Origin: Candidatus Saccharimonadota bacterium
GTDB taxonomy: Bacteria > Patescibacteriota > Saccharimonadia > Saccharimonadales > Saccharimonadaceae
Reading direction: 5' to 3'
Assembly: GCA_017514105.1 (NCBI GenBank)
Contig: JAFWKY010000006.1
Location: forward strand, 1-39,886
DNA: 39,886 nt
Numbering within the stretch: position 1 is the stretch's first letter; each line of letters starts with the position of its first letter. Positions 8,822-22,443 of this stretch are shown one piece after another. Position numbers and translations under genes: made by a program. The notes below the pieces were generated by a model. That model saw nothing but the letters and a program-made list of their open reading frames with translations, was not told the DNA's origin and did no database searches.

Positions 8822-9988
8822 ATGAAATATTTAGCGGTACTTGGCAGACAACCTGAAATATCTATCGCAGAACTTGAGGCGTTAGGTTTAGAGTGTATTC
8901 AAATACCCTCTTCGGGCCGCGTCCGTCCGGCCCATCGCCATGGGCGGACGGCGCTATCTCTCGCGCTGCCGCGCTCCGAAATGCCCGCAGAGGATATTTT
9001 GAATTCACACTTAATCAACCGTCTCGGTGGGACGCTGAAATTGGCGGTTGAAATTCCTGGACAGCCACTAGACTATTTGCGGAATTTGCCGGAAGGCAAA
9101 ATCACGCTTGGCGTGAGCGATTATTCTGATAGAGCGTCGCGGAAATCTGCCACAATGGAAGCATTGAAATTCAAAAAGATTTTGGTGCGACATGGACGAA
9201 GCGTGCGCGTGGTAGAGAATAAAGACGCAACGCTTTCTACTGCAACATCATTACATAATGGTCTGTCTGGGAAAAATCCCAAAAAAGTGGAATTAATCAA
9301 GACTGATAAAGGATGGTACCGCGTAATAGGGGTGCAAGATATTGATGCTTACGCGAGACGTGATCAGGCGAGGCCGGCGCGTGATGCAAAAGTTGGCATG
9401 TTGCCACCAAAATTGGCACAGATATTGATTAATCTATGTGGGCCGTTGCCAGATGGAGCGCGAATTTTGGATCCGTTTTGTGGAACTGGCGTAGTTTTGC
9501 AAGAAGCGCTTTTGATGGGCTATCGTGCGTATGGCACGGATATTAGCGAAAGAATGGTTGAGTATAGTGAAAAGAATTTGCGATGGCTTATCGGGGAGAC
9601 CGAGGAAGATCCTTTTTCGGTCTCTCAGGGCGACGCGACTTCTTTTACTTGGACCCAACCGATAGACGCAGTGGCGTGCGAGGGGTATCTTGGAAGACCG
9701 ATGTCGCAAATTCCGCCAGAAATTAAGTTAAAAACCGAAAAACAGGAGTGCGGCGGAATAATGCTGGGGTTTTTGAAGAACTTGTTTGGGCAGATAAAAT
9801 CTGGTACACCGGTAGTGGTAGCAATGCCAGCGTGGCTGCGTGAAGATGGTCATTATTCTCGGCTTGAAATCCTTGACGAGATTGAGGAATTGGGGTATAA
9901 TGTTAATAATAAATCGCGCGAGGGGCTTATTTACGCACGTGAAGGGCAAATCGTTGCGAGGGATATAATAATATTAAGGAAGAATTAA
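8822..9988 (+). CDS. Trm11/THUMP-like SAM-dependent methyltransferase carrying an inserted palindromic element
   Basis: Probable RNA (tRNA guanine N2-type) methyltransferase of the UPF0020/Trm11 group. The N-terminus (MKYLAVLGRQPEISIAELEA) and RLGGTLKLA are typical of that group, followed by a THUMP-like region. The C-terminal Rossmann methyltransferase has motif I DPFCGTG (217-223) and GYRAYGTDIS. The usual catalytic (D/N)PPY motif is replaced by EGYLGRP (in AVACEGYLGRP), so the substrate may differ from classical Trm11. Residues about 31-54 (SGRVRPAHRHGRT onward) are coded by an exact 68-base repeat and interrupt the N-terminal domain in frame. It follows tyrS closely and precedes rpmA with no gap. 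Confidence 0.8.
   Translation: MKYLAVLGRQPEISIAELEALGLECIQIPSSGRVRPAHRHGRTALSLALPRSEMPAEDILNSHLINRLGGTLKLAVEIPGQPLDYLRNLPEGKITLGVSDYSDRASRKSATMEALKFKKILVRHGRSVRVVENKDATLSTATSLHNGLSGKNPKKVELIKTDKGWYRVIGVQDIDAYARRDQARPARDAKVGMLPPKLAQILINLCGPLPDGARILDPFCGTGVVLQEALLMGYRAYGTDISERMVEYSEKNLRWLIGETEEDPFSVSQGDATSFTWTQPIDAVACEGYLGRPMSQIPPEIKLKTEKQECGGIMLGFLKNLFGQIKSGTPVVVAMPAWLREDGHYSRLEILDEIEELGYNVNNKSREGLIYAREGQIVARDIIILRKN
8901..8999 (+). repeat. Palindromic GC-rich element, intragenic copy
   Basis: A 68-base core (8915-8982) is identical to 22358-22425. It contains a hairpin of 12 base pairs with one bulge (8923-8951: CCGTCCGGCCCAT against ATGGGCGGACGG, loop CGCC). The core is bracketed by arms 8901-8917 and 8983-8999, which are complementary at 15 of 17 positions. 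These arms differ in sequence from those of the other copy. It keeps the reading frame of the methyltransferase open. GC content is far above that of the flanking gene. This is seen directly; the reading as a mobile or propagating element is inferred. Confidence 0.85.
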
Positions 9989-10345: not shown

Positions 10346-11398
10346 GCTAAGCATAAGTTTAAGTTTCCTTGGAGACCGATTATTTCATTGGCGACTTTTG
10401 TTTTGGTTGGATATGTTGTATACGAAAATCGTGAAGGTTTCGTTGCGACATTTGAGACTCTAAAAAATGAAGCGAATATTTTTGTGATTTTGCTTTTGGT
10501 TCCGGAGCAACTTTTTATGTATTATGCTTGTGGTCAAATATTCTTTAGTTATTTGGAATCTAAATTCAAGAAGATTTTTAGTCGCAAAGAAAAATTGTTA
10601 ATTTCTACAGAACTTAACTTTGTAAATCGTGCAGTGCCGGCGGGTGGAATTGGCGGGTTGGCATATCTGACATTTCGTTTGCGACCGTTTGGGGTGTCGG
10701 CAGGGGAGGCGAGTTTTCTTTACATTTTTCGTTATGCGATTACGACGGTAGTAAATTATGTGCAGGCGCTTGTTGCAATTGTGATTTTGTATTTGCTTGG
10801 TCAAGTTCCGCCGGAAGCGACTTGGATTATATGGGTGTCGCTACTGATGAACATGGGTGTTTTTGCGATACTTGGACTGATAGTCTTCGTCGCTAGCAGC
10901 AAGAAAAGAATTGAATTTTTTGGTAAAATAACGTCGCGAATCTTGGATTTTGTAGCGAAAATCGTAACGTTTGGGCACAAAAAGCATTTTTTGAAATATC
11001 GTAAAATTACTGATTATTTGGATAGTATTCATGACTGTGTCGTAATCGTCAAAAAAGATAAGAAATCATTGATAAAACCGACAATTTGGGGGGTTATTTA
11101 CAGTTTGTGCGAAATTGGCGTGTACTGGATCGTGGCAATTTCGCTGGGTCGCCCGGAGATTTTGCCGGTAATCATGGTAGGCGAGGCGATTGGGTCGGTA
11201 TTTGATGGAATTGTGCCGTATGGACCATACGAGTTAGGCATGGCGGGAGTGATGGGATTATTGCTTGGTGGAACGGAGGAAGCGGTGGCGTTGTCGTTGA
11301 TTATTGTGGTGATGTCGCGTGCGCTGTCGCTCTTCTTTACAATTGCGAGCGGATATTGGCCATATAATCAGGCAATACGAGGTAAAACAAATGAGTAA
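10343..11398 (+). CDS. YbhN/UPF0104-type multi-spanning membrane protein (LPG synthase TM-like)
   Basis: A 351-residue integral membrane protein with about eight hydrophobic segments. It resembles the transmembrane flippase-like region of lysylphosphatidylglycerol synthase and the YbhN/UPF0104 family. Family-type features are the segment NRAVPAGGIGGLAYLTFRL (about 94-112) and a late glycine/proline-rich loop FDGIVPYGPYELG. No aminoacyl transfer domain is present, so it is a stand-alone membrane unit, perhaps moving a lipid or glycolipid across the membrane; the substrate is unknown. The start at 10343 rather than 10325 follows from the promoter position. It overlaps xseA by 8 bases. Confidence 0.75.
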   Translation: MAKHKFKFPWRPIISLATFVLVGYVVYENREGFVATFETLKNEANIFVILLLVPEQLFMYYACGQIFFSYLESKFKKIFSRKEKLLISTELNFVNRAVPAGGIGGLAYLTFRLRPFGVSAGEASFLYIFRYAITTVVNYVQALVAIVILYLLGQVPPEATWIIWVSLLMNMGVFAILGLIVFVASSKKRIEFFGKITSRILDFVAKIVTFGHKKHFLKYRKITDYLDSIHDCVVIVKKDKKSLIKPTIWGVIYSLCEIGVYWIVAISLGRPEILPVIMVGEAIGSVFDGIVPYGPYELGMAGVMGLLLGGTEEAVALSLIIVVMSRALSLFFTIASGYWPYNQAIRGKTNE

Positions 11399-12572
11399 TT
11401 ACAGCGGGCAATTGAACTATTCTACTGAGGACACGCTCGAGGCCGCTCGGCCAAGCTTACGGTCCTCAGTAGAACAGTTCCAATCGCCCGCTGCGTTGAC
11501 ACCATCGGTGTTTATTAGTATCACTAATGATTTGCTCGCGGCGAATTATGAGATGCTGGAGATAGTTGGTGAGGTAGCGAGTTTTAAGGTAAATCAAGGT
11601 AAGTGGGTATTTTTTGACATCAAAGACGACGAGGCAAGTGTTTCGTGTTTTATGACTTTATATCAAATGAAGATGCCGATTGAAGACGGCATGAAAGTAA
11701 TCGTACGAGGTACGCCGAAATTAACGAAATGGGGAAAGTTTTCTTTTACGGTGAACGCCGTAAAGCCAGTAGGCGAGGGCAGTATTAAGAAGTCGTTTGA
11801 GATTTTGAAAAAGAAATTGACCGATGAAGGGTTATTTGATCCAGCGAAAAAACGTCCTTTGCCGAAGTATCTTACAAAACTTGGCGTAATTTCATCGCTG
11901 CAGGCGGCTGGATATGCGGACTTTATTAAGATTTTGAATGCTCGGTGGGGTGGTATTCATGTGCAAGTGGCGCACACGCAAGTACAAGGGCTGGATGCGC
12001 CGGCGCAAATTGTGAAGGCCTTAAAATATTTTAATGAACGCGGCGAAGTGCAGACAATTGCGATATTGCGTGGTGGCGGTAGCGCGGATGATTTGTCGTG
12101 TTTTAATGATGAAGAATTGACTCGCGCAATTGCTGCGTCAAAAATTCCGATTATCACTGGTATCGGACACGAAATAGACGAATCATTGGCGGATCTTGCG
12201 GCGGATGTGAAAGCATCAACGCCGTCAAATGCGGCGGAGATGCTAACGCCCGATCGCAACGACATGAAGCTGGGTGTTGGGATGATGATTGATAGAATTG
12301 ACACGGTACTTTATAATCGTGCGGATGCAGAAAAGAAGGCGGCAAAGGAAAAAATCGCTCAGGCTACCAATGCAATTTATGCACAAATTCGCGATGCACA
12401 AGCAAAGGTGTCACACCAACTGAAAGTGCTTGTTGCAATGAATCCGGAAATGGTGTTAAAGCGTGGGTATGCTATATTAAATGGTGATATTTCTCCAGGA
12501 AATGTTGTAAAGATTACAACAATTAATAAAGAAATTAAAGCAGAAGTAAAGGAAGTAAATGACAGAAAATAA
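11391..12572 (+). CDS. xseA: Exodeoxyribonuclease VII large subunit
   Basis: Catalytic subunit of exonuclease VII, which degrades single-stranded DNA. The start at 11391 follows GAGGT and overlaps the upstream gene by 8 bases; a longer frame from 11319 would lie inside that gene. After a non-conserved N-terminal segment (residues about 4-34, coded by a large palindrome) comes the OB-fold (about 35-130, VGEVASFKVNQGKWVFFDIK). The catalytic domain follows, with LGVISSLQAAGYADF, ILRGGGSADDLSCFNDEEL, ITGIGHEIDESLADLAAD and STPSNAAE. The coiled C-terminal part ends with KRGYAILNGD. At 393 residues it is on the short side for XseA. xseB overlaps its 3' end. Confidence 0.95.
   Translation: MSNYSGQLNYSTEDTLEAARPSLRSSVEQFQSPAALTPSVFISITNDLLAANYEMLEIVGEVASFKVNQGKWVFFDIKDDEASVSCFMTLYQMKMPIEDGMKVIVRGTPKLTKWGKFSFTVNAVKPVGEGSIKKSFEILKKKLTDEGLFDPAKKRPLPKYLTKLGVISSLQAAGYADFIKILNARWGGIHVQVAHTQVQGLDAPAQIVKALKYFNERGEVQTIAILRGGGSADDLSCFNDEELTRAIAASKIPIITGIGHEIDESLADLAADVKASTPSNAAEMLTPDRNDMKLGVGMMIDRIDTVLYNRADAEKKAAKEKIAQATNAIYAQIRDAQAKVSHQLKVLVAMNPEMVLKRGYAILNGDISPGNVVKITTINKEIKAEVKEVNDRK
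11402..11493 (+). repeat. 92-base palindrome inside the start of xseA
   Basis: The left arm 11402-11432 and right arm 11462-11493 are complementary over about 30 positions, with two mismatches and one bulged base. The innermost 18 bases, ending ATTCTACTGAGGAC, are nearly perfect. The 29-base centre holds a further hairpin (GGCC-GCTC-GGCC, 11441-11452). It is translated in frame into xseA residues about 4-34, which have no counterpart in ordinary XseA proteins. Seen directly; the origin is not known. Confidence 0.85.
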
Positions 12573-12756
12573 AAGCATTACGCAAAAAATTGAAGAACTA
12601 ACAAAAAGCACAGACTGGTTTTATTCGGATGATTTTAATCTTGATGAAGCCGTTAAAAAATACAAGGAAGCGATAGAACTCGCCAAAGAACTTCAAAAAG
12701 ATTTAAGCGATTTGCAAAATGAAGTGGAAGTTTTGACGGAAGATTTCCAAAAATAA
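12559..12756 (+). CDS. xseB: Exodeoxyribonuclease VII small subunit
   Basis: A 65-residue, largely helical protein that packs several-to-one on XseA. It matches the family in length and pattern, with DDFNLDEAVKKYKEAIELAKELQKDL forming two amphipathic helices (the visible core is NLDEAVKKYKEAIEL). A Shine-Dalgarno AAAGGAAG precedes the ATG, and the gene overlaps the end of xseA by 14 bases, which implies coupled translation. The pairing of xseA and xseB confirms both calls. Confidence 0.92.
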   Translation: MTENKSITQKIEELTKSTDWFYSDDFNLDEAVKKYKEAIELAKELQKDLSDLQNEVEVLTEDFQK

Positions 12757-22342: not shown

Positions 22343-22443
22343 AGAAGTTCTTTTTACGGCCGCGTCCGTCCGGCCCATCGCCATGGGCGGACGGCGCTAT
22401 CTCTCGCGCTGCCGCGCTCCGAAATACCGCAAAAAGAACTTCT
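22343..22443 (+). repeat. Palindromic GC-rich element, intergenic copy
   Basis: The 68-base core 22358-22425 is identical to 8915-8982. It sits inside perfect 13-base arms AGAAGTTCTTTTT (22343-22355) and AAAAAGAACTTCT (22431-22443). The core hairpin is 22366-22394. The T run is on the inner side of the left arm, so this does not look like a terminator. It lies in the 454-base region between two divergent genes. Confidence 0.88.

Follow-up and report, generated by a model that had tools for sequence, protein, structure and literature searches.

The exonuclease VII genes and the palindrome at the start of xseA

The window analysed here is a stretch of 39,886 nucleotides from Candidatus Saccharimonadota bacterium (assembly GCA_017514105.1, contig JAFWKY010000006.1). 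It contains the two genes of exonuclease VII, whose identification as xseA and xseB in the initial annotation agrees with the Pfam matches PF02601 and PF02609. A long palindrome lies at the 5' end of xseA, and elements of a second family of like build are found elsewhere in the window. The features are the following:

11391 to 12572, plus strand: xseA, exonuclease VII large subunit; open reading frame with PF02601 (E 4.6e-66) and an OB fold, homology from about residue 34
11402 to 11432, plus strand: left arm of the palindrome, a locus-specific sequence (fold and sequence check)
11429 to 11465, minus strand: conserved 37-base tip GGACCGTAAGCTTGGCCGAGCGGCCTCGAGCGTGTCC, tip superfamily B (pattern search, orthologues, covariance model)
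11462 to 11493, plus strand: right arm, complementary to the left arm (fold and sequence check)
12559 to 12756, plus strand: xseB, small subunit of exonuclease VII, whose first bases overlap xseA (PF02609, E 1.2e-07, and sequence); context only
8915 to 8985, plus strand: core A element in a methyltransferase-like gene; second family of like build (conserved core, own complementary arms)
22358 to 22428, plus strand: another core A copy, not within a long open frame, whose arms are again complementary but different ones

The two arms of the palindrome (31 and 32 nt) enclose a loop at 11433-11461 that itself contains a GGCC hairpin. Checked base by base, the stem consists of 29 pairs with two opposed mismatches and one bulged base on the right, confirming the initial description of arms of about 31 bases with two mismatches, one bulge and a nested GGCC hairpin; the onset 11 bases past the A of the xseA ATG (11391) is also as first described. 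Folded as RNA, the hairpin reaches -56.9 kcal/mol compared to -28.3 +/- 3.6 kcal/mol for 200 dinucleotide shuffles (z -7.9), none of which folded as well, and DNA folding parameters gave a z of -7.4. It had been counted among the strongest structures, and in a GC-corrected scan that covered 249 kb (the genome has 498 kb) it indeed came 4th of 16,542 scanning windows. The same scan returned further strong hairpins within genes. The xseA reading frame stays open through the hairpin, which encodes an N-terminal tail of about residues 5-34. The claim that this is the only non-conserved segment of the protein holds in part: homology begins at about residue 34, yet matches to some orthologues also end farther along, near residue 260-325.

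We read 110 distinct xseA starts from 167 genomes of the genus with a match (at most 110 of the 167 are covered; 8 duplicates were removed from 118 and 5 unparsed loci were left out). Most of these starts have few residues ahead of the F/L-T-P-T/S-E-F motif. Inspection by eye placed an in-frame N-terminal hairpin in about 9 of the 110 (G000, which is the genome of the window, G107, G133, G148, G188, G006, G100, G101 and, weaker, G081) and a strong hairpin just upstream of xseA in four (L280, L282, L286 and L308). A 37-base tip is common to the xseA genes of G000, G133, G148 and G188, the nested tip stem being GGCC/GGCC in two of them and GGGC/GCCC in two. Among these four orthologues both partners have changed in 11 of 12 inner arm pairs, with Watson-Crick pairing in 42 of 48 cells, and when arms from different genomes are combined only 1 to 10 of the 12 pairs form. 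The compensatory changes that the initial annotation had proposed to look for are therefore present, and the opposite pattern, a protein segment that is kept while pairing is lost, was not seen: the segment is lost or changed and the pairing is kept through compensation. Homology between the arms of G000, G133 and G148 is still recognisable, which means that the arms there evolved by compensation. G133 and G188 carry identical 37-base tips on unrelated arms, and in G188 the tip is translated in another frame; what is conserved is hence not a peptide. In the nearest relative, G107, the conserved part of XseA is 92% identical to that of the window; its xseA site has a different tip, with outer arms partly similar to those of the window as judged by eye.

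A conserved tip on stems particular to each site

When the hairpin was searched against its own genome it gave a 33-base match (88%) in a gene named tgt from its protein motif. This copy, together with the hairpin at the xseA start of G006, led to a tip superfamily that we call B. Its core B was found in 37 of 116 genomes of the genus; 53 of 116 have another form, B'. A covariance model built on 31 core B copies returned the window copy as its best hit in the window, on the minus strand (14.1 bits, E 0.009); over half of the genome the same model scored this copy weakly (E 0.056). The sub-type of the window was searched on its minus strand as a 32-base pattern, RTAAGCTTGGSCGARCGSCCTYGARYGTGTCC, with 2 mismatches allowed. 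It is present in 63 of 170 genus genomes with up to 15 copies each (the maximum in G142), and the reversed pattern had no match in the same 170 genomes. Positions 11429-11460 (minus strand) have no mismatch to the pattern, for which this copy and its orthologues had served as the source. Across the 170 genomes the presence of the tip varies from genome to genome. Superfamily B has copies in either orientation, in genes that are unrelated as well as in intergenic sequence; 68 of 142 are inside open frames and 74 of 142 outside long open frames.

Among the GTDB species genomes, at least 105 stretches contain the exact 26-base motif AAGACTTGGCCnAGCGGCCCGGAGCG; among the matches listed the hosts are Saccharibacteria, Kaiserbacteria, Adlerbacteria, Nomurabacteria, other Parcubacteria and Peregrinibacteria, as well as Bifidobacterium hapali and B. 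goeldii. Each of the 12 stretches inspected after folding was a long hairpin that carried the motif at its tip, and the predicted energies of the 79 stretches with full flanks range from -44.7 to -93.8 kcal/mol. No tip of the AAGACTTGGCCnAGCGGCCCGGAGCG type was found in viral contigs, and 30-base queries (E up to 0.05) found none or nearly none in phages and plasmids, leading us to reject all three as carriers. An assembly or amplification artefact was ruled out because the copies recur in Bifidobacterium strain records and covary. Judged by its sequence matches, the tip is old and widespread. The idea that the xseA palindrome is another in-frame palindromic element is thus supported by a tip that is multi-copy in the genus and by the in-frame hairpins of the xseA orthologues. 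In a separate observation, the arms of the Bifidobacterium copies (L326, L356 and L362) are semi-conserved and GGACATAnGTnnCTCGACC-like, unlike those of the Patescibacteria copies.

The element consists of a conserved tip of about 26-37 bases on a stem of 20-30 bp whose sequence is particular to the site. We scored arm pairing in 179 copies, which are non-independent and exclude those near contig ends (limits of 50 to 120 bases). The mean is 19.8 for a copy's own arms and 6.2 when arms are swapped between copies, and 96% of the copies exceed the 99th percentile of the swapped-arm scores. Between copies, left arms resemble each other (6.6) about as little as swapped arms complement each other (6.5). 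What the superfamily B copies share is the tip, and their arms are site-specific.

Core A, which is the 68-base core of the initial annotation, forms the second family. As far as the two were compared there is no sequence link between it and the xseA hairpin, as had been stated, the hairpin centre belonging to a different tip family. G000 has seven close copies with cores 96-100% identical and differing, complementary arms, as well as three more divergent matches; these lie in the window and on C2, C4 and C10. A core A match was found in 71 of 118 genus genomes, and 42 of 46 copies lie inside open frames. At one site in TatD, core A is found in both orientations, along with several other cores, in different species. 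This site, between GIHPE and VAIGE (L104-L133; G000:C10:38086), holds many differing in-frame hairpins across species. The G000 family at C10:33586 and C10:38086 has arms that are shared between copies, contrary to cores A and B. We also observed that a long open reading frame of the window, aligned with the gene of L046 and L049 (frame +1), has an extra ALSLDSGPRLSGP where these two carry core A. Short remnants of core A (GCTCCGAAATACC; SSLRN peptide) were seen in L126, around the TatD site, and in L063, in a gene with a PYPGGP motif, and suggest decay by deletion.

Insertion and the strand that folds

Compared with empty orthologues, 29 coding copies of B show a net gain of 18-49 aa (median 26), gains under 18 aa not being counted by the criterion used, and for core A the gain is up to 40 aa. 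By these alignments, the hairpin together with most of its arms is sequence that was added, in frame where it lies in genes. In L067 the flank on the right is native sequence, of which the left arm looks like an inverted copy. A model in which a core arrives with an inverted copy of one native flank is attractive for L067 and, in part, for L110 and L117, but is not supported as a general one. For 15 core A copies the mean side preferences scatter round zero. For the 29 B copies, removal of both arms fits best in 21, a fit that is favoured by the extra freedom in this comparison, while one side is preferred in 6 and the opposite side in 3. A look for target-site duplications gave no close empty site and no resolvable insertion boundaries. 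At the TatD locus G128, G125 and G080 have a similarity of 93-95%, and a gapped alignment showed no clean insertion. These close genomes differ by a hairpin that is present in two of the three (G128:C2:60107-60225, G080:C2:55300-55420 and G125:C2:37180-37500, the last being L151 17180-17500). The difference at G128:C2:60107 involves another core in a locally diverged flank, and G125 has an additional palindrome nested within the core. Among the genomes compared we saw no movement of the element and found no mobility enzyme. Y1 transposase gave no match in G000 (75.6% complete) and was rejected as the mover because it is present in just 5 of 116 genus genomes.

Mismatches in the arms carry information on the strand that pairs, G-T being tolerated as a wobble on one strand and reading as A-C on the other. 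On the tip strand of the 179 copies the ratio of G-T to A-C is 182:73 (p 6e-12), compared to 188:170 in the swapped-arm control. For superfamily B it is 62:30 in intergenic copies, 39:19 where the tip is sense to the gene and 35:12 where it is antisense. Core A gave 29:67 on the reference strand, a bias opposite in sign to that of core B, so the folding strand of core A would be the reverse complement of the reference strand used. A pairing requirement on the mRNA strand predicts more G-U than A-C there; the sense strand of the host mRNA gave 96:94, with no excess, and on this ground regulation of xseA was rejected as the reason for the pairing. A smaller, early set of copies scored on the mRNA strand had also seemed unbiased (38:34 for A and 17:11 for B), the bias being visible on the element strand only. 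From the mismatch counts, the fold appears to be demanded by the element and one of its strands, not by the xseA mRNA. The element strand in the window is the minus strand, antisense to xseA. A similar wobble bias could also arise from a mutation process that is linked to the element and favours one strand.

Covariation links two positions in the apical loop to two that lie 3' of the tip stem. In 181 copies the purine of the loop and the 3' pyrimidine are G-C in 164 and A-T in 17, with no other combination, and the loop pyrimidine and 3' purine are C-G in 176, T-A in 3, T-G in 1 and C-A in 1. The 170-genome pattern listing contains a few exceptions. In these copies, which are related to one another, the covariation suggests a small pseudoknot, possibly of 2 bp, and so RNA or folded single-stranded DNA.

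A probable dispersed hairpin element and its alternatives

Taken together, our results make it probable that xseA carries, as a passive tail and in antisense orientation, one copy of a dispersed hairpin element with a shared tip, a site-specific self-matching stem and an acting form of a single strand. It is most likely a selfish single-strand hairpin element that is tolerated at the N-terminus. The acting form would be a single strand of RNA or DNA corresponding to the tip strand (minus in the window), and the tip could be the part recognised by a mobility or maintenance factor. The stem would be maintained by selection on the tip strand with the aid of template switching, which may supply the complementary arms on which selection for folding would then act. 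For xseA the element would be a passive tail, adding about 30 residues ahead of the OB fold in a place that holds just a few in most orthologues.

Several known systems share parts of this description. REP/RAYT and other hairpins of Y1 transposases are dispersed and have a strand-specific folded form. Here, Y1 transposase is rare in the genus and was not matched in G000, and conservation is found at the tip instead of the foot. Small size, dispersal and many copies are features that our element shares with MITEs. The definition of a MITE rests on conserved terminal inverted repeats and target duplications, whereas here the ends of the element are the variable part and the arm ends are site-specific. 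By comparison, superfamily B as defined here, a tip on a locus-specific paired stem, describes the xseA hairpin, which matches its sub-type pattern without mismatch. Coding palindromes of nematomorph mitochondria are long inverted repeats in genes, actively kept paired and gained or lost between species (parts of PMC6649704). They resemble our element in lying in coding genes, in their upheld pairing and in their variable presence. In the part of PMC6649704 that deals with them, however, conserved protein is encoded by each of the arms and there is no mention of a common tip, while here the sequence is added and the tip is common.

A further likeness, in the host genes, is to the Rickettsia palindromic elements, short hairpins that lie in frame in many unrelated genes whose protein survives; xseA and the copies of A and B in open frames share this in-frame insertion. 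That the xseA palindrome is an ordinary selfish element of this type, slowly decaying, as the remnants in L126 and L063 might indicate, is unlikely. The Rickettsia families have a conserved peptide (as described in part of PMC10969869) and lose their repeat identity with time (from part of PMC6649704). Here, copies have neither arms nor a peptide in common, the arms are particular to the locus and upheld by compensatory change, and the tip alone is common, conserved as nucleic acid across differing frames and orientations.

It is improbable that replication template switching at quasi-palindromes is the sole cause of the pairing and that the hairpin has no function. Template switching is able to create and correct stems (according to part of PMC8794818), and in the TatD hairpins the outer pairs extend into native codons with matching third positions, as judged by eye. 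Yet a strand-blind process would not be expected to give a wobble bias set by the orientation of the tip, and tips as well as arms are conserved, across phyla. A similarly low probability attaches to the tip strand being a small structured RNA, regulatory or ribozyme-like, that is spread by recombination and serves the host. The strand-specific G-U tolerance and the loop covariation are RNA-like and the 74 copies outside long open frames would suit such an RNA; against it, genic copies occur in both orientations, presence differs among genomes and no Rfam family was matched. At gathering score Rfam found only tRNAs in the window, and the weaker matches, none of them credible, were mostly microRNA-type hairpins far under their cut-offs. 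Finally, a cis-acting mRNA structure controlling translation or transcription of xseA and xseB, which the initial annotation had offered as an alternative, would account for a very stable hairpin 11 bases past the ATG of a two-gene operon and for arm covariation, but it is very doubtful and unsupported, because the bias in the pairs is set by the strand of the element, wobble tolerance being indifferent to the sense of the host mRNA, and in-frame hairpins occur in just about 9 of 110 orthologues. The tip family, moreover, is spread over unrelated genes and intergenic sites in either orientation.

There is a real chance that the kind of element is itself new. More tentatively, we speculate that it may represent an undescribed class of mobile single-strand hairpin, in which a pseudoknotted tip of 26-37 bases moves between genes and phyla (tiny episymbiotic bacteria and an actinobacterial genus) as RNA or single-stranded DNA of one strand and rebuilds a fresh complementary stem on site. 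Topic and sequence-word searches of the open-access literature, in one library where absence is not proof, found no description of it. The usual layout of small mobile repeats is reversed here, the centre being conserved and the ends private. If confirmed, the element would represent a new mode of spreading for a minimal element, a natural case of stems rebuilt with compensation at every site, and an element common to Patescibacteria and Bifidobacterium. For annotators, it would explain odd N-terminal and loop insertions in Saccharibacteria proteins.

Three other strong hairpins of G000, at C10:66031, C10:92251 and C3:15241 (L177, L178 and L184), have short or no open frames and private arms. 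Their apical parts are similar (GGCAyC..AAGG..CCT), an AGCACC-like sequence follows some of them, and they are perhaps another family.
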